Shown piece by piece: positions 2,293-48,596 of a DNA stretch of 64,000 nucleotides. Every line of letters starts with the position of its first letter. The first letter of the stretch is position 1. The notes under the pieces were generated by a model. The model did no database searches. It was not told where the DNA came from and was given only the letters and a program-made list of their open reading frames with translations. The stretch is taken from positions 1 through 64,000 of the forward strand of contig NZ_QVMV01000006.1 of assembly GCF_003417465.1 (NCBI RefSeq). Direction: 5' to 3'. The translations under genes and the position numbers were made by a program. Source of the DNA: Wenzhouxiangella sp. 15190 (GTDB taxonomy: Bacteria; Pseudomonadota; Gammaproteobacteria; Xanthomonadales; Wenzhouxiangellaceae).

Positions 2293-4875
2293 ATGTCTCA
2301 GGTCACTGTTTCACAACTTGCTGATGTATTGGGCGTCGAAGTCGATCGCCTGATTACCCAGCTCAAGGAAGCCGGAATCGAGGTCAGTGAACCCGATGCC
2401 GCGGTGACCAATGAGGACAAGATCAAGTTGCTCACCTATCTGCGTTCGAGCCATGGTAAGGCCGAATCGGAAGATACGACGCAGCCGCGCAAGGTCACAC
2501 TGACGCGCAAGAGCGTGAGTGAGTTGAAGGTGCCCACCGGCGGCGCCGGTCGCACCCGTTCGCGTGGTGCCGTGCCGTCGCGCACGGTCAATGTGGAAGT
2601 GCGCAAGCGTCGCACCTACGTCAAGCGTGGCGAGATTTCCGAAAAGGAACAGAGCGACCCGGAACGCGAAGCCGCGGCCCAGGCGCTGGAAGAAGCCAAG
2701 CGCCAGCGCGAGGAAGCCGAACGGGCCGAACGCGAAGAGGCCGAACGTCGCCAGCAAGAAGCCGAGGAACAGGCACGCCTCGACGAAGAGGAGCGCAAGA
2801 AGCGCGAGGCCGAGCAAGAAGAGCAGCGCAAGGAAGCGGATCGCCAGCGCGCCGAAGCCGAAGCGCTGAAGAAGGTCGAAGAAAAGGTTGCCCGCCAGGC
2901 CGCTCAGAAGGAAGCCGAACGCAAGGCTTCCAAGACCAAGGGCGAAAAGGCCGACGCCAATACGCGCTATGGTCGTGAAGAACTGCACATCGCGCCGAAA
3001 TCCAAGCGCCGCAAGCCCAAGCGCAAGGGCGGCGCCAAGGCGGCCCGCGTGGCCAGCAGCGTCGGCGGTGAGCACGGTTTCCAGCGGCCGACCGCGCCGG
3101 TCAAGCGCGAGATCGAAGTGCCCGAGACCATCACCGTCGGTGAGCTGGCCAAGCTGATGGCCGTCAAGGCCGGTGAACTGATCAAGGTGCTGATGAACAT
3201 GGGCACCATGGTCACCATCAACCAGCCGCTGGACCAGGACACCGCCATCCTCGTGGTCGAGGAAATGGGTCACGAGGCCAAGCGGGCCGAAGAGAAGGAC
3301 ATCGAACAGCAGCTGGCAGCCGCAGAAGAGGATGCCGCCGCCGAAGGTGAAGAAGTCCCCCGTCCGCCGGTGGTTACCGTGATGGGCCACGTCGACCACG
3401 GCAAGACGTCGCTACTCGACTACATCCGTCGTGCCAAGGTGGCCTCCGGTGAACAGGGTGGTATCACCCAGCACATCGGCGCCTATCACGTGAAGACCGA
3501 CAACGGTGTGGTGACCTTCCTGGATACCCCGGGCCACGCGGCATTCACTTCCATGCGTGCCCGCGGTGCCGATGCGACCGACATCGTCATCCTGGTGGTG
3601 GCCGCCGACGACGGCGTGATGCCGCAGACAAAGGAAGCCATCCAGCATGCGCGTGCCGCCGGCGTGCCGCTGATCGTGGCCGTCAACAAGATGGACAAGC
3701 CCGAAGCCGATCCCGATCGCGTCAAGTCGGAGTTGGCCGCCGAGGAAGTCGTGCCCGAGGACTGGGGCGGTGAGGAAATATTCGTGCCGGTTTCGGCCAT
3801 TACGGGCGACGGCATCGACAACCTGCTCGAGTCCATCCTCCTGCAGTCCGAAGTGCTCGAGCTCAAGGCCAACCCCGAGCGCCGCTGCCGCGGCGTGGTG
3901 GTGGAATCCTCGCTCGACAAGGGCCGCGGCCCGCTTGCCACCATCCTGGTCCAGGACGGCACATTGCATCGCGGCGACATGATTCTTGCCGGCGAGGAAT
4001 TCGGTCGCGTGCGTGCGATGTTCGATGAAACCGGCCAGGCCATCGAAGAAGCGGGTCCGTCCATTCCGGCCGAGGTGCTGGGTCTGTCGGGCGTACCCAA
4101 CGCCGGCGACGACGTATTGGCCGTGGCCGACGAAAAGAAGGCCCGCGAGGCCGCAGAACAGCGCAAGCAGTCTGCCCGGGAAGGCCGCCTGGCCGAGAAG
4201 CAGGCCGCCAAGCTGCAGAATCTGTTCGAGCAGATGGGCGAAGACAGCGAAGAGCAGCAAACTGTCAACCTGGTCATCAAGGCCGATGTACAGGGTTCGG
4301 TCGAGGCGCTACGCGATGCTTTGACCCGCTTGTCCAACGAAGAAGTCAAGGTCAACGTCATCGCCTCGGGCGTAGGCGGGATCACCGAGTCCGACGCGAG
4401 CCTGGCGCAGGCCTCGGATGCGATCATCATCGGTTTCAACGTGCGCGCTGATGCTGCCGCGCGCAGGATCATCCAGGAAGCCGATCTCGACCTGAATTAC
4501 TACAGTGTCATCTACAACGCGATCGACGACGTCAAGAAAGCCATCTCCGGCCTGCTCGGTACCGACACCAGGGAAGAGATCATCGGTCTGGCCGAGGTCA
4601 AGGATGTGTTCCGGTCCTCAAAGCTGGGCGCGATCGCCGGTTGCCTGGTGGTCGAGGGCGTGGTCAAACGCGCCAACCCGATTCGCGTGCTGCGTGACAA
4701 CGTGGTGGTCTTCGAAGGCGAGCTCGAGTCGCTGCGTCGCTTCAAGGACGACGTCTCTGAAGTGCAGGCCGGCACCGAATGCGGTATCGGCGTCAAGCAG
4801 TACAACGACGTCAAGCCGGGCGACCAGATCGAGTGCTTCGAGCGAATCGAAGTGCAGCGAACCCTGGACGACTGA
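2293..4875 (+). CDS. infB: Translation initiation factor IF-2
   Basis: This 860-aa GTPase brings fMet-tRNA to the 30S subunit and promotes subunit joining. An IF2_N domain occupies the first 50 residues. A highly charged Glu/Lys/Arg/Ala linker follows (about 120-250), then a second IF2_N module (about 280-335). The G domain has G1 GHVDHGKT at 365-372, G3 DTPGH at 411-415 and G4 NKMD at 465-468. Domains II to IV follow to the C terminus. The ATG at 2293 follows GAGG at 2282-2285. The longer reading frame from 2173 is an overlap with nusA. The stop overlaps the rbfA start by one base. Confidence 0.97.
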
Positions 4876-5219
4876 TGGGAACGGGCCGAGCCGAACGCGT
4901 CGCCGGGCTTCTGCGGCGCGAACTGGCCGACATCCTCCACAGCCAGTTCGAATACGAGATTCCGCGCGGCCTCATCAGCGTCACCGACGTCGAGGTCGCG
5001 CGCGACATCGCGCATGCCAAGGTCTACGTCGCGGTACTCGAGATCGAGCAGGCACCCGAAATCATCCGGTTCCTGAACGAGCACGCCGGCCAGGTTCGCC
5101 ACGAATTGAGCCAGCGAGTCCGCCTGCGCCATACGCCCGAACTGAAGTTCCTGCACGATACCTCCTCGGAAACCGGCGACCGCATCGAGAAGTTGCTTGC
5201 GGCTGCGAAAAAGAAGTAA
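4875..5219 (+). CDS. rbfA: 30S ribosome-binding factor RbfA
   Basis: This 114-aa KH-fold protein binds the 30S subunit and helps 16S rRNA 5'-end maturation and cold adaptation. The family pattern runs from RAERVAGLLRREL through ISVTDVEVARD to LRHTPELKFLHD. The start ATG shares its first base with the infB stop (TGATG at 4873-4877), which shows tight coupling. The C-terminal tail is shorter than in E. coli (133 aa). A longer upstream frame is only an infB shadow. It is followed by a heptad-repeat element that separates it from truB. Confidence 0.94.
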   Translation: MGTGRAERVAGLLRRELADILHSQFEYEIPRGLISVTDVEVARDIAHAKVYVAVLEIEQAPEIIRFLNEHAGQVRHELSQRVRLRHTPELKFLHDTSSETGDRIEKLLAAAKKK

Positions 5220-5224
5220 ATCGT

Positions 5225-5320
5225 GAATAGAAAATAGTAAATAGAAAATAGTAGGAAGGTCGGGGCATAGCCCCCAGCGCGCACCAGTTCTATTTTCTAT
5301 TTTCTTTTCTCTATTTTCTT
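5225..5320. repeat. Heptad-repeat inverted element, AAATAGW family (H1)
   Basis: The left arm (5225-5254) is a tandem array of 7-bp units of type AAATAGT/AAATAGA. The right arm (5289-5320) is the reverse-complement array of similar units. A 34-bp GC-rich core lies between them. It fills the rbfA-truB gap inside an otherwise tightly packed operon, beginning a few bases after the rbfA stop and ending about 11 bp before the truB ATG. RNA from it would fold into a long imperfect hairpin. Confidence 0.8.
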
Positions 5321-9577: not shown

Positions 9578-9643
9578 CCTCGACAAGCCGCCATGGCGCC
9601 TGGCGGGGAGTGGCTTCGGTGAGGGTGGAGGTGATTGGGGTAA

Positions 9644-9842
9644 AGCACGAAATCCGAAGCACCAAATTCGAAACAAATTCGAAATTCGAATGACCGAAAC
9701 GCACCATGATCCAGGTGGTTGGCCGAGGGCGATGTAATGCCAATCGAGTCGGGCTTCAATAGGCCGCCGGTTGTTGTTTGGATCATTCGAACATTGGAAT
9801 TTCGAATTTGTTTGAGATTTGGTGCTTGAGCTTTGGAATTTT
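9644..9842. repeat. Heptad-repeat inverted element, AAATTCG family (H2)
   Basis: The left arm (9644-9700) and right arm (9777-9842) are imperfect inverted copies made of 7-bp related words such as AAATTCG, CACCAAA and GAAACAA. A 76-bp core lies between them. It fills most of the 282-bp gap between the ATL gene and the convergent mtfA-like gene. The same arm sequence recurs at 10701, 34395, 45233 and 62612. Confidence 0.8.
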
Positions 9843-9859
9843 ACAAGTTGGGTGATAGC

Positions 9860-10615: not shown

Positions 10616-10700
10616 GCGAGAACTCGAGTGGTCGGCAGAGGTTCAATTATCAATCATTTTCCGGGCCGCTACAGGGAACTCAATGCACCGCTCGCAGGTG

Positions 10701-10769
10701 TTTGGGTCATTCGAACATTGAGATTTCGAATTTGTTTCGGATTTGAGATTTCGGATTTGGTGCTTCCGA
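10701..10769. repeat. Solitary AAATTCG-family heptad arm (H3)
   Basis: A single arm in the same orientation as the right arm of H2, with words such as TCATTCG, ATTTCGAA, TTTGTTTCGG and GGTGCTTC. I see no inverted partner between 10616 and 10700. It ends just before the possible dapE start codons. A reading frame that enters dapE from 10743 is repeat-derived. Confidence 0.7.
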
Positions 10770-10802
10770 CGAATGTCGGTCAATACTGTAAGCTTCACCC
10801 CC

Positions 10803-14741: not shown

Positions 14742-14745
14742 TGGG

Positions 14746-14900
14746 CACCGTAGGTCGGGATCACATCCCCGACGGACGAGGCCTGTATACCCCCACTGGG
14801 GCGCTATGCGTGTTCGTGGGTCGAAAGTGGGAAACACATGAGCGCCGAGTGTGGGTGGACGAAATGTCGTCCGTCGGGGATGTGACCCCGACCTACGGTG
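14746..14900. repeat. REP-like 155-nt hairpin, GTAGGTCGGG family (R1)
   Basis: Left arm 14746-14779 and right arm 14867-14900 are inverted copies of 34 bp with one mismatch, containing GTAGGTCGGG and ATCCCCGACGGACGA. The 87-bp core between them is itself partly self-complementary (GGGGCGCT near 14798 against AGCGCC near 14841), so the whole unit can form one long hairpin. It lies between the convergent truD and FHA genes, where it may end transcription from both sides. A single arm recurs at 16624. Confidence 0.85.
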
Positions 14901-14919
14901 TCTTCGATACAGGTCGTCG

Positions 14920-16578: not shown

Positions 16579-16623
16579 GTTCGTTGCTCGTTGGTTGACT
16601 TGTTCGTTGCTTTGTCGAGGCCT

Positions 16624-16657
16624 GCGTAGGTCGGGGTAACATCCCCGACGGACGACT
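16624..16657. repeat. Solitary arm of the GTAGGTCGGG REP-like family
   Basis: This 34-bp copy matches the left arm of the hairpin at 14746 (GTAGGTCGGG...ATCCCCGACGGACGA) in the same orientation. It is itself a small palindrome (GTCGGGG ... CCCCGAC), so even a single arm forms a hairpin. It lies between the gamma-lyase and beta-synthase genes. Confidence 0.8.
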
Positions 16658-16680
16658 GCGCAGGTAGTATGCTAGGTCGT

Positions 16681-20074: not shown

Positions 20075-20716
20075 TCAGGCCGCGTCCGGCTGGTTTTCCG
20101 GCATGGCCCTGCGAACGGGCTCGATGGCCTTGAGTTCTTCGCAGATGCTTCGAATGCGCTCGAGCGGTTCGATATCACAATCGAACCTCTCGGCATTATA
20201 GACCTGTGGCAACAGACAACAATCGGCGAGTGTCGGTTCATCGCCGTGGCAGAAACGGCCGGTGCGCGGATGGTCGAGCATGCGTTCGACAGCGGCCAGG
20301 CCGGCTTCGGTCCAGTGCCGGTACCAGGCCAGCTTGGCGTCCTCGTCCAGGCCGGCCGGCCCGGTCAGGTACTTGAGCACGCGCAGGTTGTTGAGCGGGT
20401 GAATCTCGCAGGCGATGGCCTGGGCAATGGCGCGCACCCTGGCGCGCCCGACGGAATCGGTCGGCAACAGGGCAGGCCGGGGATGTAGCTCTTCGAGGTA
20501 CTCGAGCATGGCCATCGACTGGGTGATCACGACCTCGCCGTCGACCATCGTGGGCACCAGCTGCTGCGGATTGAGCGCCGTGTAGTCCCCCCCGTACTGC
20601 TCGCCACCACCGCGCACCAGGTGCACGGGCCGGATCTCGTGGTCGATACCCTTGAGGTTGAGCGCCATGCGCACCCGGTAACTCGCCGATGAGCGCCAAT
20701 ACGAATACAGAATCAT
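20075..20716 (-). CDS. maiA: Maleylacetoacetate isomerase (zeta-class GST)
   Basis: This 213-aa GST-fold enzyme isomerises maleylacetoacetate to fumarylacetoacetate with glutathione. The N-terminal active-site loop is YWRSSASYRVRMALN, where the usual SSCS is SSAS. NPQQLVPTM and ITQSMAMLEYLEE form the glutathione site. It is the last gene of the homogentisate cluster and overlaps fahA by 4 bp. A long open frame that continues upstream to 21820 is only a shadow of fahA. ATG 20716 is the family start. Confidence 0.92.
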   Translation of the reverse strand: MILYSYWRSSASYRVRMALNLKGIDHEIRPVHLVRGGGEQYGGDYTALNPQQLVPTMVDGEVVITQSMAMLEYLEELHPRPALLPTDSVGRARVRAIAQAIACEIHPLNNLRVLKYLTGPAGLDEDAKLAWYRHWTEAGLAAVERMLDHPRTGRFCHGDEPTLADCCLLPQVYNAERFDCDIEPLERIRSICEELKAIEPVRRAMPENQPDAA

Positions 20717-21699
20717 CTTTCGTACCGCACGACCTTCTGTTCGATGGCGCCGAAGATGGACTCGCCTTCGCGCGTTTTCATTTCGATGCGGACGACGTCG
20801 TCGAACTGCATGAACGGCGTCTTCGGCTCGCCGCCGGCGATGATCTCGAGCATGCGCTTTTCCGCCAGGCAGGAGGCGCCGCGGCTGGTGTCCTGGTTGG
20901 CGATGGTGCCCGAACCGACCAGTGAGCCGGCCGCCAGCGGACGGGATTTGGCCGCATGGGCGACCAGTTCGGCGAAGGAAAACTGCATGTCCTCGCCGGC
21001 TTCCGGTTCGCCGAACAGCTCGCCGTTGAGATGGGTCAGGAGCGGCAGGTCGAGCTTGCTGTCCCGCCATGCGTCGCCCAACTCGTCGGGTGTGACCACC
21101 ACCGGCGCCAGGGCCGAGCGCGGCTTGGACTGCAGGAAGCCGAAGCCCTTGGCCAGTTCGCCCGGGATCAGGTTCCTCAGTGAAACGTCGTTGAGGATCG
21201 TGACCAGCTGGATGTGCCCGGCGGCCTCGCCGGCATCGACGCCCATCGGCACGTCGTCGGTAATGATGCCGATCTCGGATTCGAAATCGATGCCCCACTC
21301 GGTCGAGGCCATGGTGATGGGGTCGTAGGGCCCCATGAAGCCGTCGGAGACGGCCTGGTACATCAGGGGGTCGGTGAAGAAGCTCTCCGGCACCTCGGCA
21401 CCGCGCGCCTTGCGTACGCGCTCGACGTGCGGCAGGTAGGCCGATCCGTCGACGAACTGGAAGCAGCGCGGCAGCGGCGCGGCCAATGCCTGCACATCCA
21501 GGTCGAAGCTGCCCTCGGCCGTGCCGTTCATCAGGTCCTCGAACAGGCTGGCAAGCCGTGGGGCGGCGCTGTCCCAGTCGTCCAGGGCTGTCTGGAGCGT
21601 CGGTGCGATGTCCGTGGCCAGGACCGCCCGGGTGAGGTCGCGGTTGACGACGACCAACGTGCCGTCGCGTCCGCCTTCTTTGAGGGTTGCCAATTTCAT
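20713..21699 (-). CDS. fahA: Fumarylacetoacetate hydrolase
   Basis: This 328-aa FAH-family enzyme splits fumarylacetoacetate into fumarate and acetoacetate, the last step of tyrosine degradation. The metal site is seen in WGIDFESEIGI (acidic ligands near 135-145) and the ILNDVSLRN segment near 167, with a C-terminal GSGTIANQDTSRG motif. It belongs to the shorter bacterial FAH type of about 330 aa. An AGAGG site precedes ATG 21699. It lies between hmgA and maiA; the hmgA-fahA gap holds repeat element H4. Confidence 0.93.
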   Translation of the reverse strand: MKLATLKEGGRDGTLVVVNRDLTRAVLATDIAPTLQTALDDWDSAAPRLASLFEDLMNGTAEGSFDLDVQALAAPLPRCFQFVDGSAYLPHVERVRKARGAEVPESFFTDPLMYQAVSDGFMGPYDPITMASTEWGIDFESEIGIITDDVPMGVDAGEAAGHIQLVTILNDVSLRNLIPGELAKGFGFLQSKPRSALAPVVVTPDELGDAWRDSKLDLPLLTHLNGELFGEPEAGEDMQFSFAELVAHAAKSRPLAAGSLVGSGTIANQDTSRGASCLAEKRMLEIIAGGEPKTPFMQFDDVVRIEMKTREGESIFGAIEQKVVRYER

Positions 21700-21760
21700 G
21701 TGTTGTTGCCTCTAAGTTCGTTTGTGTGGCTGCTTTTCGGCTAGCGATCTGGTTTGGTCG

Positions 21761-21930
21761 AGAAAATAGTGAATAGAAAATAGTAAATAGAAGCGGGCTT
21801 TCGGGGAAACGGTGTGCCATCTATTGTTGACGGATGCTTTCGGCTTGCCGTGACGAAGGTGTCATTCCTTCGCAATGCCACAGAACGCCCGAAGCCGAAC
21901 TATTTTCTATTTTCTTTTCTCTATTTTCTA
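21761..21930. repeat. Heptad-repeat inverted element, AAATAGW family (H4)
   Basis: Left arm 21761-21793 consists of units AAATAGT, GAATAGA, AAATAGT, AAATAGA. Right arm 21900-21930 is the inverted array. The core of about 106 bp begins GAAGCGGG and ends CCGAAC. The right arm runs into the stop codon of hmgA: the TAG read on the minus strand (21928-21930) is part of the array. It fills the hmgA-fahA gap. Confidence 0.8.
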
Positions 21931-23055
21931 ATCCTTCGGTTTCCAACTATCCACATACCCCGTCCACTCGATCTTTTCGGCATCGTCGGTGACATCGAGT
22001 GCATCGCGGGTGTCGAGCATGACGGCGACTTCCTCGGTCTTGTCTTTCTTGGGCGTGAACGCATTGTTCATCGCCTTGGGATGGGGGCCGTGGGTGAAGC
22101 CACAGGGGTGGTGCGTCATCATGCCGGGGTGGATGTTGTCGCGCGAGAAGAAGTTTCCGGCGTGATAGAACAGTACCTCGTCGTAGTCATCGTTGTTGTG
22201 GAAGAACGGCACCTTGAGCGCGTCTTCGTCGGACTCGAACGGACGCGGCGTGAAGGTGCAGATGACGAAGCGGTGCGCCACGAAGGTGGTGTGCGCCGAC
22301 GGCGGCAGGTGATAACGATGGCTCATGAGCGGCCGGATGTCGCGCCAGTTGATGCGCACCGGCATGAGATCACCCTTCCAGCCGACCGCATCCAGCGGGT
22401 TGAACGGATAGGTGATGGTCGAGACCTGCTGGCGCCGCTTGACGTGGACTTTCCACTCGTCCTCTCCCTGCTGGTCGCGGAAGGCATCGTCGATTTCCGG
22501 GCTGTCGAGGATGGCCGGGTCGAAGATGGCATGCGGGCCGACCAGGCCTTTCTCCGGAAGCATGTAGCTGGAGTTGGTCGCTTCGATGAGCAGCATCTCG
22601 ACCGGTGCGTCGGACTCGATGCGCCACATCGTGCCGCGCGGCAGCATGATGTAGTCGCCGTCGCGAAAGCTCAAGTGGCCGAAGTCGCAGAACAGCTCGC
22701 CCGCACCGTCGTGGATGAACAGCAGCTCGTCGCCGTCGCCGTTGCGGACCAGGTGGTCCATCTTGCCGTCGGAGTGCCAGCAGCGGAACTTGCAGTGCGC
22801 GTTGCTGAGCAGCTCGGCGGCCTGCCACGGCGAATTCAAGCCATCGTCGAGCTTGGTCGTATCGAAGGCGCGGGGCTGCAGCGGCCCTTCGAAATCGGTC
22901 CAGCCGGTGGGCATATGCGTGTGGTAGAAGTGCACGGCCGGGCCGAAGAAACCTTCCTTGCCCATCTCGCGCTCATAGGTTCCCTCGGGCAGGTTGGTAT
23001 GCGCCTGCCGGCTGGCCCTGCCTTCGACTTTTGAATGGCTGATCCACTTTTTCAT
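21928..23055 (-). CDS. hmgA: Homogentisate 1,2-dioxygenase
   Basis: This 375-aa cupin-fold iron dioxygenase opens the ring of homogentisate to maleylacetoacetate. The C-terminal segment FFHNNDDYDEVLFYHAGNF followed by HPGMMTHHPCGFTHGPHP holds the candidate iron ligands. It is shorter than the 430-440 aa classical enzyme and belongs to the compact bacterial form. GGAGG lies 6 nt before ATG 23055; a longer frame to 23154 is repeat-derived. The stop codon lies within heptad element H4. It is flanked on both sides by AAATAGW elements. Confidence 0.9.
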   Translation of the reverse strand: MKKWISHSKVEGRASRQAHTNLPEGTYEREMGKEGFFGPAVHFYHTHMPTGWTDFEGPLQPRAFDTTKLDDGLNSPWQAAELLSNAHCKFRCWHSDGKMDHLVRNGDGDELLFIHDGAGELFCDFGHLSFRDGDYIMLPRGTMWRIESDAPVEMLLIEATNSSYMLPEKGLVGPHAIFDPAILDSPEIDDAFRDQQGEDEWKVHVKRRQQVSTITYPFNPLDAVGWKGDLMPVRINWRDIRPLMSHRYHLPPSAHTTFVAHRFVICTFTPRPFESDEDALKVPFFHNNDDYDEVLFYHAGNFFSRDNIHPGMMTHHPCGFTHGPHPKAMNNAFTPKKDKTEEVAVMLDTRDALDVTDDAEKIEWTGYVDSWKPKD

Positions 23056-23110
23056 TGCTGCCTCCGGTTGGGTCTTTGCTGTAGAGCGTGCTTTGGCTTT
23101 CGGTGGAAGT

Positions 23111-23224
23111 TTAGAAAATAGTAAATAGTAAATAGTGAATAGAAGCAGTACCAAGTGGCGACTGGCAGATTCCCGGGCCGGCCGCGGGGAATCTATTTTC
23201 TATTCACTATTTTCTATTTTCTTG
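23111..23224. repeat. Heptad-repeat inverted element, AAATAGW family (H5)
   Basis: Left arm 23111-23143 carries AAATAGT three times, then GAATAGA. Right arm 23192-23224 is the inverted array. The 48-bp core begins GAAGCAG and has a GC-rich palindrome CCCGGGCCGGCC. It fills the hppD-hmgA gap, with its right edge 1 bp from the hppD stop codon. Confidence 0.8.
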
Positions 23225-23225
23225 C

Positions 23226-24272
23226 TCAAAGCACGCCGCGCTTTTCCTGGTCGCGCTCGATCGCCTCGAACAGGGCCGTGAAGTTGCCCTCGCCGAAGCC
23301 TTCGTTGCCCTTGCGCTGGATGATCTCGAAGAAGATCGGGCCGATGTTGGTCTTCGTGAAGATCTGCAGCAACTGCTTGTCGGCATCGTTGGGATCGGCG
23401 TCGATCAGGATCTTGTTCTTGCGCATGCGTTCCACGTCTTCGCCATGGTTCGGAATGCGCTCGTCGATCGCGTCATAGTAGGTGTCGGGTGTGTCGAGGA
23501 AGTCCACGCCTTTCTCGCGCAGCCCCTCGACGGTCTCGTAGATGTTGTCGGTGTAGAGCGCGATGTGCTGGACGCCTTCACCGTTGTATTCGTCGAGATA
23601 CTCGTTGATCTGGCTCTTGGGATCTTCCGATTCGTTGATCGGGATGGCGATCTTGCCATTGGGCGCGGTCATGGCCTTTGACTTCAGGCCGGTGGCCTTG
23701 CCCTTGATGTCGAAGTACTTGACCTGGAAAAAGCCGAACAGGTCTTCATAGAAGTCCGACCACTGCTTCATGTTGCCGTTGTAGACGTTGTGCGTGAGGT
23801 GGTCGATGAAGTTCATGCCCATGCCTTCGGGATGGCGATCGACCGCCGGGTCGAATTCGAAGTGCTTGTCGAGGTCCTGCTCGCCTTCGGTCAGGTACAG
23901 CACGGAACCACCGATGCCCTCGATGCAGGGTACGTCGATCGGCAGGGTGTCGGGCTTGTTCTCGACATCCTTGGCGCCCTTGCCACGGACGGCTTCGTAA
24001 GCGGCTTTCGAATCCGACACGCGCATGGCGAAGCCGGTGCAGCAGGGGCCGTGGGCGGCGCTGAAGTCGCTGGCGAAGGAGTCGCTGGTCTCGTTGACCA
24101 GGAAGTTCATGTCGCCCTGGCGGTACAGGGTGACCGGCTGCGACTTGTGGCGCGCCACGGCAGTGAATCCGAGTTGATTGAACAGGTCGTGCAGCATCGC
24201 CGGTTCGGGCGCGGCGAATTCGATGAATTCAAACTGCTCGACGCCAAGCGGATTGGGATGGGACTGGCTCAT
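23226..24272 (-). CDS. hppD: 4-hydroxyphenylpyruvate dioxygenase
   Basis: This 348-aa Fe(II) enzyme converts 4-hydroxyphenylpyruvate to homogentisate. It has two vicinal-oxygen-chelate domains; the C-terminal one carries the iron ligands in NFIDHLTHNV (His near 175), GEGVQHIALYTD (His near 255) and GPIFFEIIQRKGNEGFG (Glu near 325), with the last motif diagnostic. ATG 24272 follows an AGGAG site. It is the first gene of the operon hppD-hmgA-fahA-maiA, divergent from the MarR gene across a 136-bp region with a palindromic operator. Confidence 0.95.
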   Translation of the reverse strand: MSQSHPNPLGVEQFEFIEFAAPEPAMLHDLFNQLGFTAVARHKSQPVTLYRQGDMNFLVNETSDSFASDFSAAHGPCCTGFAMRVSDSKAAYEAVRGKGAKDVENKPDTLPIDVPCIEGIGGSVLYLTEGEQDLDKHFEFDPAVDRHPEGMGMNFIDHLTHNVYNGNMKQWSDFYEDLFGFFQVKYFDIKGKATGLKSKAMTAPNGKIAIPINESEDPKSQINEYLDEYNGEGVQHIALYTDNIYETVEGLREKGVDFLDTPDTYYDAIDERIPNHGEDVERMRKNKILIDADPNDADKQLLQIFTKTNIGPIFFEIIQRKGNEGFGEGNFTALFEAIERDQEKRGVL

Positions 24273-25572: not shown

Positions 25573-25655
25573 GTTGTGGTCGGTTGTCTGTGATCTGTGG
25601 CCCGACCATTGACCCTGATTACTGACTACCGAGTACAGACTACTGACTACTGCAA
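25573..25655. repeat. Heptad-repeat inverted element, GTCNGTA family (H6)
   Basis: Left arm 25573-25601 has units GGTCGGT, TGTCTGT, GATCTGT. Right arm 25621-25655 read in reverse complement gives GTCAGTA, GTCTGTA, CTCGGTA, GTCAGTA. The core is short, about 20 bp. The arms are less exactly matched than in other loci. It fills the truC-carboxypeptidase gap and ends about 20 bp before the next start codon. Confidence 0.65.
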
Positions 25656-30922: not shown

Positions 30923-31588
30923 TCAGGCCAGGCGCGAGGCCGGGTCGACCAACTCCAGGCGCCTGAGGGCCACGCCGGCCTGGGTACGGTTGCGAACGTC
31001 CAGTTTCTGCAGGATTTCGCTCATGTGTGCCTTGACGGTGCGTTCCTGGATGCCCAGTTCGTCGGCGATCTGCTTGTTGAGCCAGCCGTCGGCGACCAAG
31101 GCCAGCACGCGGAACTGCTGGGGCGTGAGGGCGGCGATGTGTTCGGCCAGCACCAGATCCTCGTCGTTGGAGTCCAGATCGGCGACGGCCCGCTCGAGGT
31201 GCGGCGGCACCCATTCGCGACAGCCGAATACGGCGTTGAGCGCAGTCGTCATGTCGTCCAGCCCGGAGCTTTTGGGGATGAAGCCGGCGGCGCCATGGTC
31301 GAGTACGCGCCGGATCACGCGGGGGTCCTCGTTGGCCGACACCACCACGACGGCGACGGCCGGATGATGGCAGCGAATCGAGGCCAGGCCGGCCAGGCCA
31401 TGGCTGCCGGGCATGTGCAGGTCGAGCAGCACCAGGTCGATGTCTTCGTGTTCCTCGAGCAGGGAAGCAGTTTCGGGCAGGTCCCGGGCCTCGAGAATCT
31501 CGACATCGTCCAGGCAGGCGCCGAGCGCCTGCACCAGGGCGCCCCGGAAAAGCGGGTGGTCGTCGGCAATGAGCACGCGCGTAGCCAT
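30923..31588 (-). CDS. NarL/FixJ-family response regulator
   Basis: This 221-aa regulator has a receiver domain (about 4-120) with the acidic pocket DDHP, phosphoacceptor Asp56 in LLDLHMPG and KSS (Lys near 103). A LuxR-type helix-turn-helix follows (about 155-215, LTPQQFRVLALVADGWLNKQIADEL and VKAHMSEIL). ATG 31588 was chosen over an upstream frame. No histidine kinase is adjacent, so it is an orphan here. It lies 27 bp downstream of the 3-hydroxybutyrate dehydrogenase gene on the same strand and may share its transcript. Confidence 0.92.
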   Translation of the reverse strand: MATRVLIADDHPLFRGALVQALGACLDDVEILEARDLPETASLLEEHEDIDLVLLDLHMPGSHGLAGLASIRCHHPAVAVVVVSANEDPRVIRRVLDHGAAGFIPKSSGLDDMTTALNAVFGCREWVPPHLERAVADLDSNDEDLVLAEHIAALTPQQFRVLALVADGWLNKQIADELGIQERTVKAHMSEILQKLDVRNRTQAGVALRRLELVDPASRLA

Positions 31589-31615
31589 GATGCCGATGTT
31601 AGGGGTTTCCAACCG

Positions 31616-32386
31616 CTATTGCACCGTCCAGCCACCGTCGACGACGATGCACTGGCCGGTGATATTGCGAGCCGTCGGTCCCACCAGGAAGGCGCAGATG
31701 CCGGCCAGTTCCTCGAATGAAATGAACACCCCCTTGGGCATGGGCTTGAGCATAATTTCGTCGACCACTCTGTCCTCGGAGATGCCGTGGGTTTTTGCCT
31801 GGTCGGCGATCTGCTTTTCCACCAGCGGCGTCTTGACGTAGGTCGGGCAGACGGTGTTGATGGTGATGTCGGTATCGGCCGTTTCCAGCGCCAGCACCTT
31901 GGAGAAGCCGGTCAAGCCGTGCTTGGCCGCGACGTAGGCACTCTTGAACGGGCTGGCAACCAGGGAATGAATGGAGCCGATGTTGACGATGCGGCCGAAA
32001 CCCTGCTCGCGCATGCCCGGCAGCAGGGCGCGGGTCAGGCGGGCGGTGCCCGTGAGCATGACCTGAACGAGCTGATCCCACTTGTCCATGGGAAAATCTT
32101 CCAGGCGCGCGACATGCTGCAGCCCGGCGTTGTTGACGAGTACGTCGACGGGGCCGTCCAGTTCCGCAACCAGGCGTTCGACTTCCTCGTCGCGCGTGAC
32201 GTCCACGGCGTAGCCACTTGCATGGCCGCCAGCTCCGTTGATCTTTTCGGCGGTGACCTCGGCGGCGCGGGCGTCGAGATCGGTGGCGAGTATGCTGTGA
32301 CCGGCCTGTGACAGGTGGTATGCGATGCCGGCACCGATGCCGCTGCCGGCTCCGGTGATCAGGATGCGCAGGGTGCGATCGCTCAT
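31616..32386 (-). CDS. bdhA: D-3-hydroxybutyrate dehydrogenase
   Basis: This 256-aa short-chain dehydrogenase has the NAD motif TGAGSGIG at 11-18, NNAG near 85-88 and the catalytic residues Ser138, Tyr151 and Lys155 within SIHSLVASPFKSAYVAAKHG, a pattern specific to 3-hydroxybutyrate dehydrogenases. It oxidises D-3-hydroxybutyrate to acetoacetate. It is divergent from the 3HB-oligomer hydrolase gene, which makes its substrate. Acetoacetate is also the product of the tyrosine cluster nearby. Confidence 0.92.
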   Translation of the reverse strand: MSDRTLRILITGAGSGIGAGIAYHLSQAGHSILATDLDARAAEVTAEKINGAGGHASGYAVDVTRDEEVERLVAELDGPVDVLVNNAGLQHVARLEDFPMDKWDQLVQVMLTGTARLTRALLPGMREQGFGRIVNIGSIHSLVASPFKSAYVAAKHGLTGFSKVLALETADTDITINTVCPTYVKTPLVEKQIADQAKTHGISEDRVVDEIMLKPMPKGVFISFEELAGICAFLVGPTARNITGQCIVVDGGWTVQ

Positions 32387-45208: not shown

Positions 45209-45232
45209 CGGGAGCAGGCTTCGCTATTGGGC

Positions 45233-45387
45233 GCAAATCCGAAATTCGAAGCACCAAATTCGAAACAGGCATGAAATTCGAAATTCGAATGACAGAAACG
45301 GATAGGTGCCGAGGTGTCAAGCGCCCGCCGTTTCAAGCATTCGTGCTTCGTATTTGTTTCGGATTTGGTGCTTCGGATTTCGAGTTT
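45233..45387. repeat. Heptad-repeat inverted element, AAATTCG family (H8)
   Basis: Left arm 45233-45300 (AAATCCG, AAATTCGAAGCACCAAA, GAAATTCGAATGACAGAAA words) faces right arm 45335-45387 (GTGCTTCG, TTTGTTTCGGA, TTTGGTGCTTCGGATTTCG words) over a core of about 34 bp. It separates the ATPase gene from its permease gene. The right arm ends 8 bp from the ATPase stop codon. Confidence 0.8.
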
Positions 45388-45394
45388 GCGAGCG

Positions 45395-48430: not shown

Positions 48431-48596
48431 GCGTCCGGTTTCCGGTTTCCGGTTTACGGTTTACGGGAAGGCTTGGGATCAGTCTGTCTGTCTTGATGGC
48501 ATAAGGGCGTCTACCAGACCGGCGCTTCATTCCTCCGTGCTCGAAGCCGTGAACGCCGGAATCCGTATACCGGAAACCGGAAACCGTAAACCGTAA
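48431..48596. repeat. Heptad-repeat inverted element, TTTMCGG family (H9)
   Basis: Left arm 48431-48468 reads TCCGG-type heptads: TTTCCGG twice, then TTTACGG twice. Right arm 48554-48596 read in reverse complement gives TTTACGG, TTTCCGG, TTTCCGG, TATACGG, ATTCCGG. Two variants of one 7-bp word occur in both arms. The core of about 85 bp begins GAAGGC. The right arm ends 2 bp before the aroC start codon. Confidence 0.85.

Follow-up and report, generated by a model that had tools for sequence, protein, structure and literature searches.

The gene hmgA of Wenzhouxiangella sp. 15190 ends in a TAG codon that is also the first triplet of an array of tandem heptads, which raises the question of whether the array supplied the stop codon and how it came to lie there. 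The locus was studied in a window of 64,000 nt, meaning the whole stretch of DNA analysed (contig NZ_QVMV01000006.1, positions 1 to 64,000). The studied genome is designated G000, and other G numbers are relatives. The features around the end of hmgA are as follows.

20713..21699, minus strand: fumarylacetoacetate-hydrolase-type gene, downstream of hmgA and in the same direction (family matches under cut-offs)
21761..21790: left arm of element H4
21791..21899: core of H4, 109 nt, single copy in the genome; its folding lengthens the arm stem
21900..21930: right arm of H4, heptad type TAG[A/T][A/G]AA in minus-strand reading
21928..21930, minus strand: TAG stop codon of hmgA, which also begins the outermost heptad of the right arm of H4
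21928..23055, minus strand: hmgA, homogentisate 1,2-dioxygenase family (PF20510 and PF04209 above cut-off, TIGR01015 far under cut-off)

The end of hmgA

On the minus strand, hmgA ended in ...VDSWKPKD followed by TAG, and this TAG opened TAGAAAATAGAGAAAAGAAAATAGAAAATAG, the right arm of H4. The initial annotation had read the stop codon as the first heptad of this arm, and positions 21928–21930 bore this out: the first TAG of TAGAAAATAGAGAAAAGAAAATAG... is the hmgA stop. The two arms formed an inverted pair of 30 nt, 90% complementary and 109 nt apart. Lag-7 arrays were present beyond chance: with the stricter detector, the window had 10, versus one in total over 20 shuffled windows.

A match to hmgA was found in 52 of 61 genomes, its own included. 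Gene ends were read at 30 loci, again with its own; one of them, L035, did not show the gene end, and G016, where the gene is split, was included as well. The initial annotation had considered either insertion at the old stop or truncation of the gene, and had proposed aligning HmgA C-termini for a shifted protein end. No shift was found. The orthologues of the five closest relatives (88–95% identity) stopped at the same codon position and ended WKPK[D/N/R], that is, WKPKN with TGA in G003, G010 and G016, WKPKD with TAA in G024 and WKPKR with TAA in G027. In the element-free relatives G043 and G053 (73% identity), hmgA ended WKPKS and WKPKA, both with TAG, and a TAG at this position therefore needs no array. 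More distant relatives mostly had a WKG ending. That H4 truncated hmgA and its TAG made a new, earlier end, as the place of this TAG in the first heptad might suggest, is hardly credible and was rejected because the orthologues, G043 and G053 among them, end at the same codon.

The evidence supports insertion of H4 at the old stop or directly after it. In terms of position the array does supply the stop codon, as first annotated; as history this is no more than possible, since TAG is present in relatives without the element. Judging from the aligned sequences, hmgA kept its ancestral end, the TAG heptad coinciding with the stop or taking it over, and this TAG may predate the array. An identical stop position and identical downstream bases in relatives without the element had been named in advance as counter-evidence; the stop position was the same, the downstream bases were not.

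All five closest relatives carried an element of a family other than TAG behind hmgA. The array was GGTTTCA in G003, G010 and G016, GGTTTCC in G027 and a 9–10-nt unit in G024; further genomes had GGGAAGA (G025), CAGTTGT (G034) or others. Overall, the detector found periodic arrays in 17 of 26 hmgA spacers, at a median of 5 nt from the stop (at four of the larger distances, as seen by eye, it had picked up the second arm or had started part-way into the first), and none in nine. The H4 core had no clear alignment with the spacers of G003 or G027, while the spacers of G003 and G010 aligned well with each other.

Elements in the window and their distance from stop codons

Further elements and genes in the window were:

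5216..5319: third TAG element in the window; the stop of gene 4875–5219 overlaps with its first unit, which is degenerate
23112..23222: H5, between hppD and hmgA, with TAG-type arms at 23112–23142 and 23192–23222
23226..24272, minus strand: hppD (4HPPD, TIGR01263)
25615..25652: single array of CTGACTA type, matching the arms of PF05635 locus C22b
45209..45394: spacer with AAATTCG-type arms, matching the arms of PF05635 locus C39, as do spacers 9578–9859 and 10616–10772
48434..48596: H9, in front of aroC, with GGTTTCC/CCGGAAA arms and no matching PF05635 locus in the genome
49708..49792: H10, behind aroC (gene end 49693), with GTGTGAA arms that match PF05635 locus C22a

Another inverted repeat, of type GTAGGTCGGGRTNACATCCCCGACGGACG and without heptads, was seen at 14742–14919 and 16579–16680. 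The sole Rfam match in the whole window at gathering thresholds was a tRNA at 109–182.

The initial annotation had also described precise abutment to gene ends as a pattern. A tendency of this kind was confirmed, and exactness was seldom seen. The edge of H5 had been placed 1 bp from the hppD stop; its strict array ended at 23222, three bases before the stop at 23226–23228. H10 had been said to start at the base after the aroC stop, which is not true of its strict array (49708, 14 nt after) and is true of degenerate units from 49692, which lie flush and share the last two bases of the stop.

Across the genome, TAG heptads occurred at 22 places, 19 of which had both arms by the detector. Four of these 22 elements were excluded from the codirectional set (three lay between convergent genes and one between two gene starts). 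In half of the remainder (9/18) the element began no more than 12 nt from a stop, and in two of these the array overlapped it; 2/18 ended within 12 nt of a start. Position within the gap was non-uniform (KS p = 0.015), and the contrast of nine stop-side with two start-side elements gave p = 0.065. None of the 22 elements disrupted a gene as called by a simple in-house gene finder. Selection against damage explains most of the stop-side bias, and a target preference for sites behind stops is possible.

Protein ends were compared with G003 at 18 further TAG sites; 14 were equal in length and four differed by 1–3 residues (#9, #10, #11 and #15, judged by eye). At site #11, G003 has a TAG stop without an array. 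The product of gene 4875–5219 was one residue shorter at its end than its counterparts in G003 and G024; the last 12 residues of hppD were identical in G003, G024 and G027.

A PF05635 gene between heptad arms

One of the 22 TAG elements contained a PF05635 gene. This element (G000:C6:64417-64891), located between two protein genes, enclosed a PF05635/TIGR02436 four-helix-bundle gene in a core of 402 nt; the S23 protein encoded by 23S rRNA intervening sequences belongs to this family. Its ORF of 131 aa matched PF05635 (E = 1e-36, above cut-off), the TIGR02436 four helix bundle protein (2.2e-36) and structure 2gsc (7.1e-30). G000 had five PF05635 genes, each between inverted arms.

At L071:1960-2394 (G000:C22), the PF05635 ORF extended into its own heptad arm, so that its last residues (SHFTLNTSHSPDTSHSAAEPR) were largely translated heptads. 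At G000:C22:2402-5441 (also L071), GTGTGAA arrays recurred every 0.6–1 kb with pairs of small ORFs between them, resembling a row of cassettes. These pairs are putative toxin–antitoxin modules, and the row lies beside presumed sulfate-assimilation genes.

PF05635 was present in 18 of 37 genomes and in 9 of 17 (eight of these nine above cut-off), and in none of 14 control genomes. Of the 47 matches, 44 yielded a locus for analysis. Their inverted-arm score exceeded the 99th percentile of 960 random windows in 31/44 and the maximum of these windows in 20/44. Period-7 arrays flanked both sides in 24/44 (mock 1/44) and period-8 arrays in three (mock 0); two-sided arrays of either period were absent by the detector at no fewer than 17 of the 44.

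The gene was also framed by arms in distant phyla. In a collection with one genome per species, at least 592 stretches were found and at least 589 confirmed, and the best 80 of these were studied, which are those nearest to the query and not a random sample. By title they came from Proteobacteria, Acidobacteria, Bacteroidota, Nitrospirae, Planctomycetes, Clostridia, Elusimicrobia and others. Among these best 80 of at least 589 loci, period-7 arrays lay on both sides in 41 (mock 0/80) and period-8 arrays in seven (mock 0); by the detector, at least 32 had neither. The arm score was above the 99th percentile of 156 mock positions in 45/80 and above their maximum in 39.

Pairing of arm heptad and protein

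Arm similarity followed protein similarity. Of the 44 loci, 37 entered the Mantel test (L107, L108, L116, L123, L125, L129 and L132 were dropped for missing, wrong-strand or unsuitable protein reads), and the 25 with two complementary periodic arms were used. The correlation was r = 0.52 (p = 0.0002) over 300 pairs and r = 0.37 (p = 0.0002) for the 296 pairs below 70% identity. Of ten window elements compared within G000, eight matched the arms of a single one of the five PF05635 loci. This locus was C6 for three TAG elements, C22a for H10, C22b for the array at 25615 and C39 for three AAATTCG spacers. The ten elements were chosen by the authors, and the three AAATTCG spacers were picked for C39 after a prior look. 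Spacer 16579–16680 was marginal for C15, and H9 matched none of the five. H4 scored 54 against the C6 arms (null maximum 30) and did not match the other four loci.

H4 thus probably belongs, as a member without an ORF, to a family of small mobile elements whose full form consists of heptad arms and a PF05635/TIGR02436 gene and whose protein would move cognate-armed DNA in trans. Recognition of the heptads by the protein, and movement in trans, are what we infer from this anatomy and pairing. The association could also run in reverse, the heptad hairpins being made or moved by something else and the PF05635 genes being passengers that settled in the arms. Short elements do far outnumber PF05635 copies, as in the TAG family, and both H9 and the GTGTGAA arrays of G024 are without a matching gene found in their genomes. 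We nevertheless regard this as unlikely, given that the arm family goes with the protein lineage, that matches in G000 are one-to-one, and that arms frame the gene even across phyla.

Cores and arm complementarity

No similarity was found among the 19 TAG cores, that of the full copy included. Copy number was tested for 15 of them (three cores shorter than 20 nt and the 402-nt core were left out), and each was single copy in G000. Across six genomes the same 15 matched only themselves, save one weak match in G003 (E = 0.009). With TAG cores unrelated and single copy, arms and cores therefore have different histories, for which simple copying of whole elements gives no explanation. In this the TAG elements are unlike ordinary deletion derivatives, which counts against the reading of H4 given above. 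Fold energies of cores were mostly near shuffled values.

Four of 18 GTGTGAA elements examined had related cores (L072:7697-7866, L072:8662-8831, L080:1589-1766 and L090:1714-1884), sharing a core of 108–111 nt at 80–87% identity over the longer matches. A shared core as in a miniature element (MITE) was accordingly rejected for the TAG elements and is true of these four. Three TAG cores measured 108–109 nt, near the length of the shared GTGTGAA core, and were without sequence similarity.

The arms of a TAG element paired no better with each other than with arms of different TAG elements (mean 43.2 versus 45.9, upper-tail p = 0.993), and there is therefore no sign of selection for exact pairing. 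Co-evolving arms as a mark of hairpin selection were rejected, the trend being opposite.

RNA structure, termination and reverse transcriptase

As RNA, H4 was predicted to form one long stem (z −3.24). A simple scan with loops of 3–8 nt found no terminator-like site (G+C-rich stem and T run) at 21650–23300, versus a shuffle mean of 2.1. TAG elements also lay inside what we take to be ATP-synthase, rplJ–rplL and pilB–pilC operons. Strong termination is unlikely on both grounds, the missing terminator-like site at H4 and H5 and the position within apparently essential operons.

Regulation has been the published reading of such repeats. The heptanucleotide elements of Geobacter metallireducens were taken as regulatory sites (passages of PMC2700814), as were the TAACTGA heptamer sets of Beggiatoaceae, Cyanobacteria and Bacteroidetes, whose overlap with stop codons had already been noted (passages of PMC4679880). 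Arrays maintained by selection behind genes, as terminators, cis sites or RNA elements, would fit the fold of H4 and the repeated occupation of the same spacers. We consider this improbable for the elements studied here: besides the points on termination, the heptad is wholly different from one related species to the next, and orthologous spacers are in some cases empty.

The search for an RVT_1 (PF00078) reverse transcriptase gave no match in G000 and ten others of 16 genomes, some of these assemblies being incomplete. This is evidence against a retro route like that of diversity-generating retroelements, and a reverse transcriptase acting in trans was rejected. A stretch of 30 kb in G018 (C1:3792391-3820990) held a cluster of nine reverse-transcriptase matches, of which four had the same score.

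TAG elements in related genomes and reuse of gaps

Among 27 genomes, TAG arrays gave 49 matches in G000, one weak match in G026 and none in the other 25. From this near-restriction, the TAG family seems to have spread within the G000 lineage. Site #9 mixed TAG and TCG units, and TCG arrays were present at site #7 in G003, which suggests that the TAG unit arose from TCGTGAA.

Elements have been gained at near-empty junctions. At site #1, between genes presumed to be pilB and pilC, the junction measured approximately 0–2 nt in G003 and G024 versus a whole TAG element in G000 (starts set by eye). The spacer between genes 30923–31612 and 31616–32386 was 0–3 nt in G000, G024 and G027, versus a 216-nt GGTTTCA element in G003. 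Spacer by spacer, the same gaps of the syntenic region often held different families, or none. By detector calls, with lists compiled by hand, gaps at TAG sites held another family in G003 or G024 in 14/21 cases versus 11/53 for other window spacers (p = 0.0003); with only spacers having an orthologous pair in G003 or G024, the contrast was 14/21 versus 11/50 (p = 0.0008). Gaps behind genes are therefore reused repeatedly.

Immobile arrays might instead arise in place through slippage and hairpin expansion, with growth halting at coding sequence. Varying copy numbers, the overlap of some arrays with stop codons and the unit-to-unit drift suggested by site #9 would suit such an origin. It is nonetheless very improbable that one heptad arose in this way at 22 places of G000 while being all but absent from 26 relatives, or that junctions of 0–3 nt gained elements of about 200 nt or more.

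GGTTTCA arrays were found in 26 of 27 genomes, most of them in G003, where one of two PF05635 genes had GGTTTCA arms; most other genomes with these arrays had no GGTTTCA-armed PF05635 gene among the loci examined. G024 had GTGTGAA arrays, yet the arms of its single PF05635 locus differed. Both findings count against the proposed reading, as do the unmatched H9, the marginal spacer 16579–16680 and the PF05635 loci without two-sided arrays. For GTGTGAA arrays the control counts are uninformative, as the heptad read backwards nearly repeats itself. Long GTGTGAA arrays were seen at contig ends (G000:C6:4-63 and C9:4-63); they probably broke the assembly there, and longer arrays may be missing from it.

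Proposed mechanism and comparison with known systems

A full element consists of an inverted arm of about 4–5 tandem heptads, a PF05635/TIGR02436 gene and a second inverted arm, with a heptad that differs between protein lineages. We propose that the protein would bind cognate heptad arrays and that host enzymes would, in trans, copy or move the DNA enclosed by two such arrays. Most of the new copies to survive would be those in gaps directly after stop codons, and for this reason arrays would touch gene ends. In an hppD–hmgA–fah transcript, the arms may form a stem of about 30 bp, and RNase III could cut it, by analogy with Coxiella, while transcription continues.

If the pairing of protein and heptad is causal, the S23 protein and the heptamer arrays, in several bacterial groups so far ascribed to regulation without proof, would both gain a testable function. 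The elements would then be a new kind of mobile element with its specificity in a seven-base address, and repeats touching or overlapping stop codons would be remains of insertions tolerated behind genes. More tentatively, there might be a widespread class of enzyme-less mobile elements in which a four-helix-bundle protein reads lineage-specific heptads as an address and host enzymes spread the enclosed DNA, with the heptamers of Geobacter, Beggiatoaceae and Cyanobacteria and the 23S rRNA intervening sequences as members or relics. Cyanobacteria also have STRR repeats.

Our search of the open literature, which took in few subscription journals, found no paper joining PF05635 genes to dispersed heptad arrays. 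The main texts of PMC4679880 and PMC2700814 contain neither S23 nor four-helix. A CRISPR survey (PMC10910872) uses the name '23S rRNA-intervening sequence protein' once, and a Flavobacterium genome paper (PMC5524665) names a 'four helix bundle protein'.

Among the closest known systems are the intervening sequences (IVS) in the 23S rRNA of Coxiella and Leptospira, which share the PF05635 family and stem-forming terminal inverted repeats. Passages of PMC4990558 describe the Coxiella IVS as excised by RNase III, with a 28-bp stem and three tandem heptameric repeats before the S23p ORF, the S23 protein as without known function and a solved relative of the PF05635 protein as a five-subunit ring. 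Unlike the IVS, the elements of this study are found in the spacers that separate protein genes; they come in several families and many copies per genome, and the S23p ORF is missing from most. H4 itself has the long-stem ends of an IVS, but lies outside the 23S rRNA gene, between hmgA and the fah-type gene, and has no S23p ORF in its 109-nt core.

The four-helix bundle is related to Avd of diversity-generating retroelements, and the bAvd and Avd models matched below their cut-offs; in contrast to such retroelements, no RVT_1 match accompanies it in G000. Like MITEs, the elements are short, non-coding and intergenic, have inverted ends common to dispersed copies and are apparently served in trans. 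They differ from MITEs in having tandem-heptad ends in place of a fixed terminal repeat, unrelated TAG cores and a paired protein that is no known transposase. With the heptamers of Geobacter and Beggiatoaceae they share abundant intergenic arrays, and the Geobacter heptamer GGGACCG, when rotated, is the arm unit of a PF05635 locus (L093).
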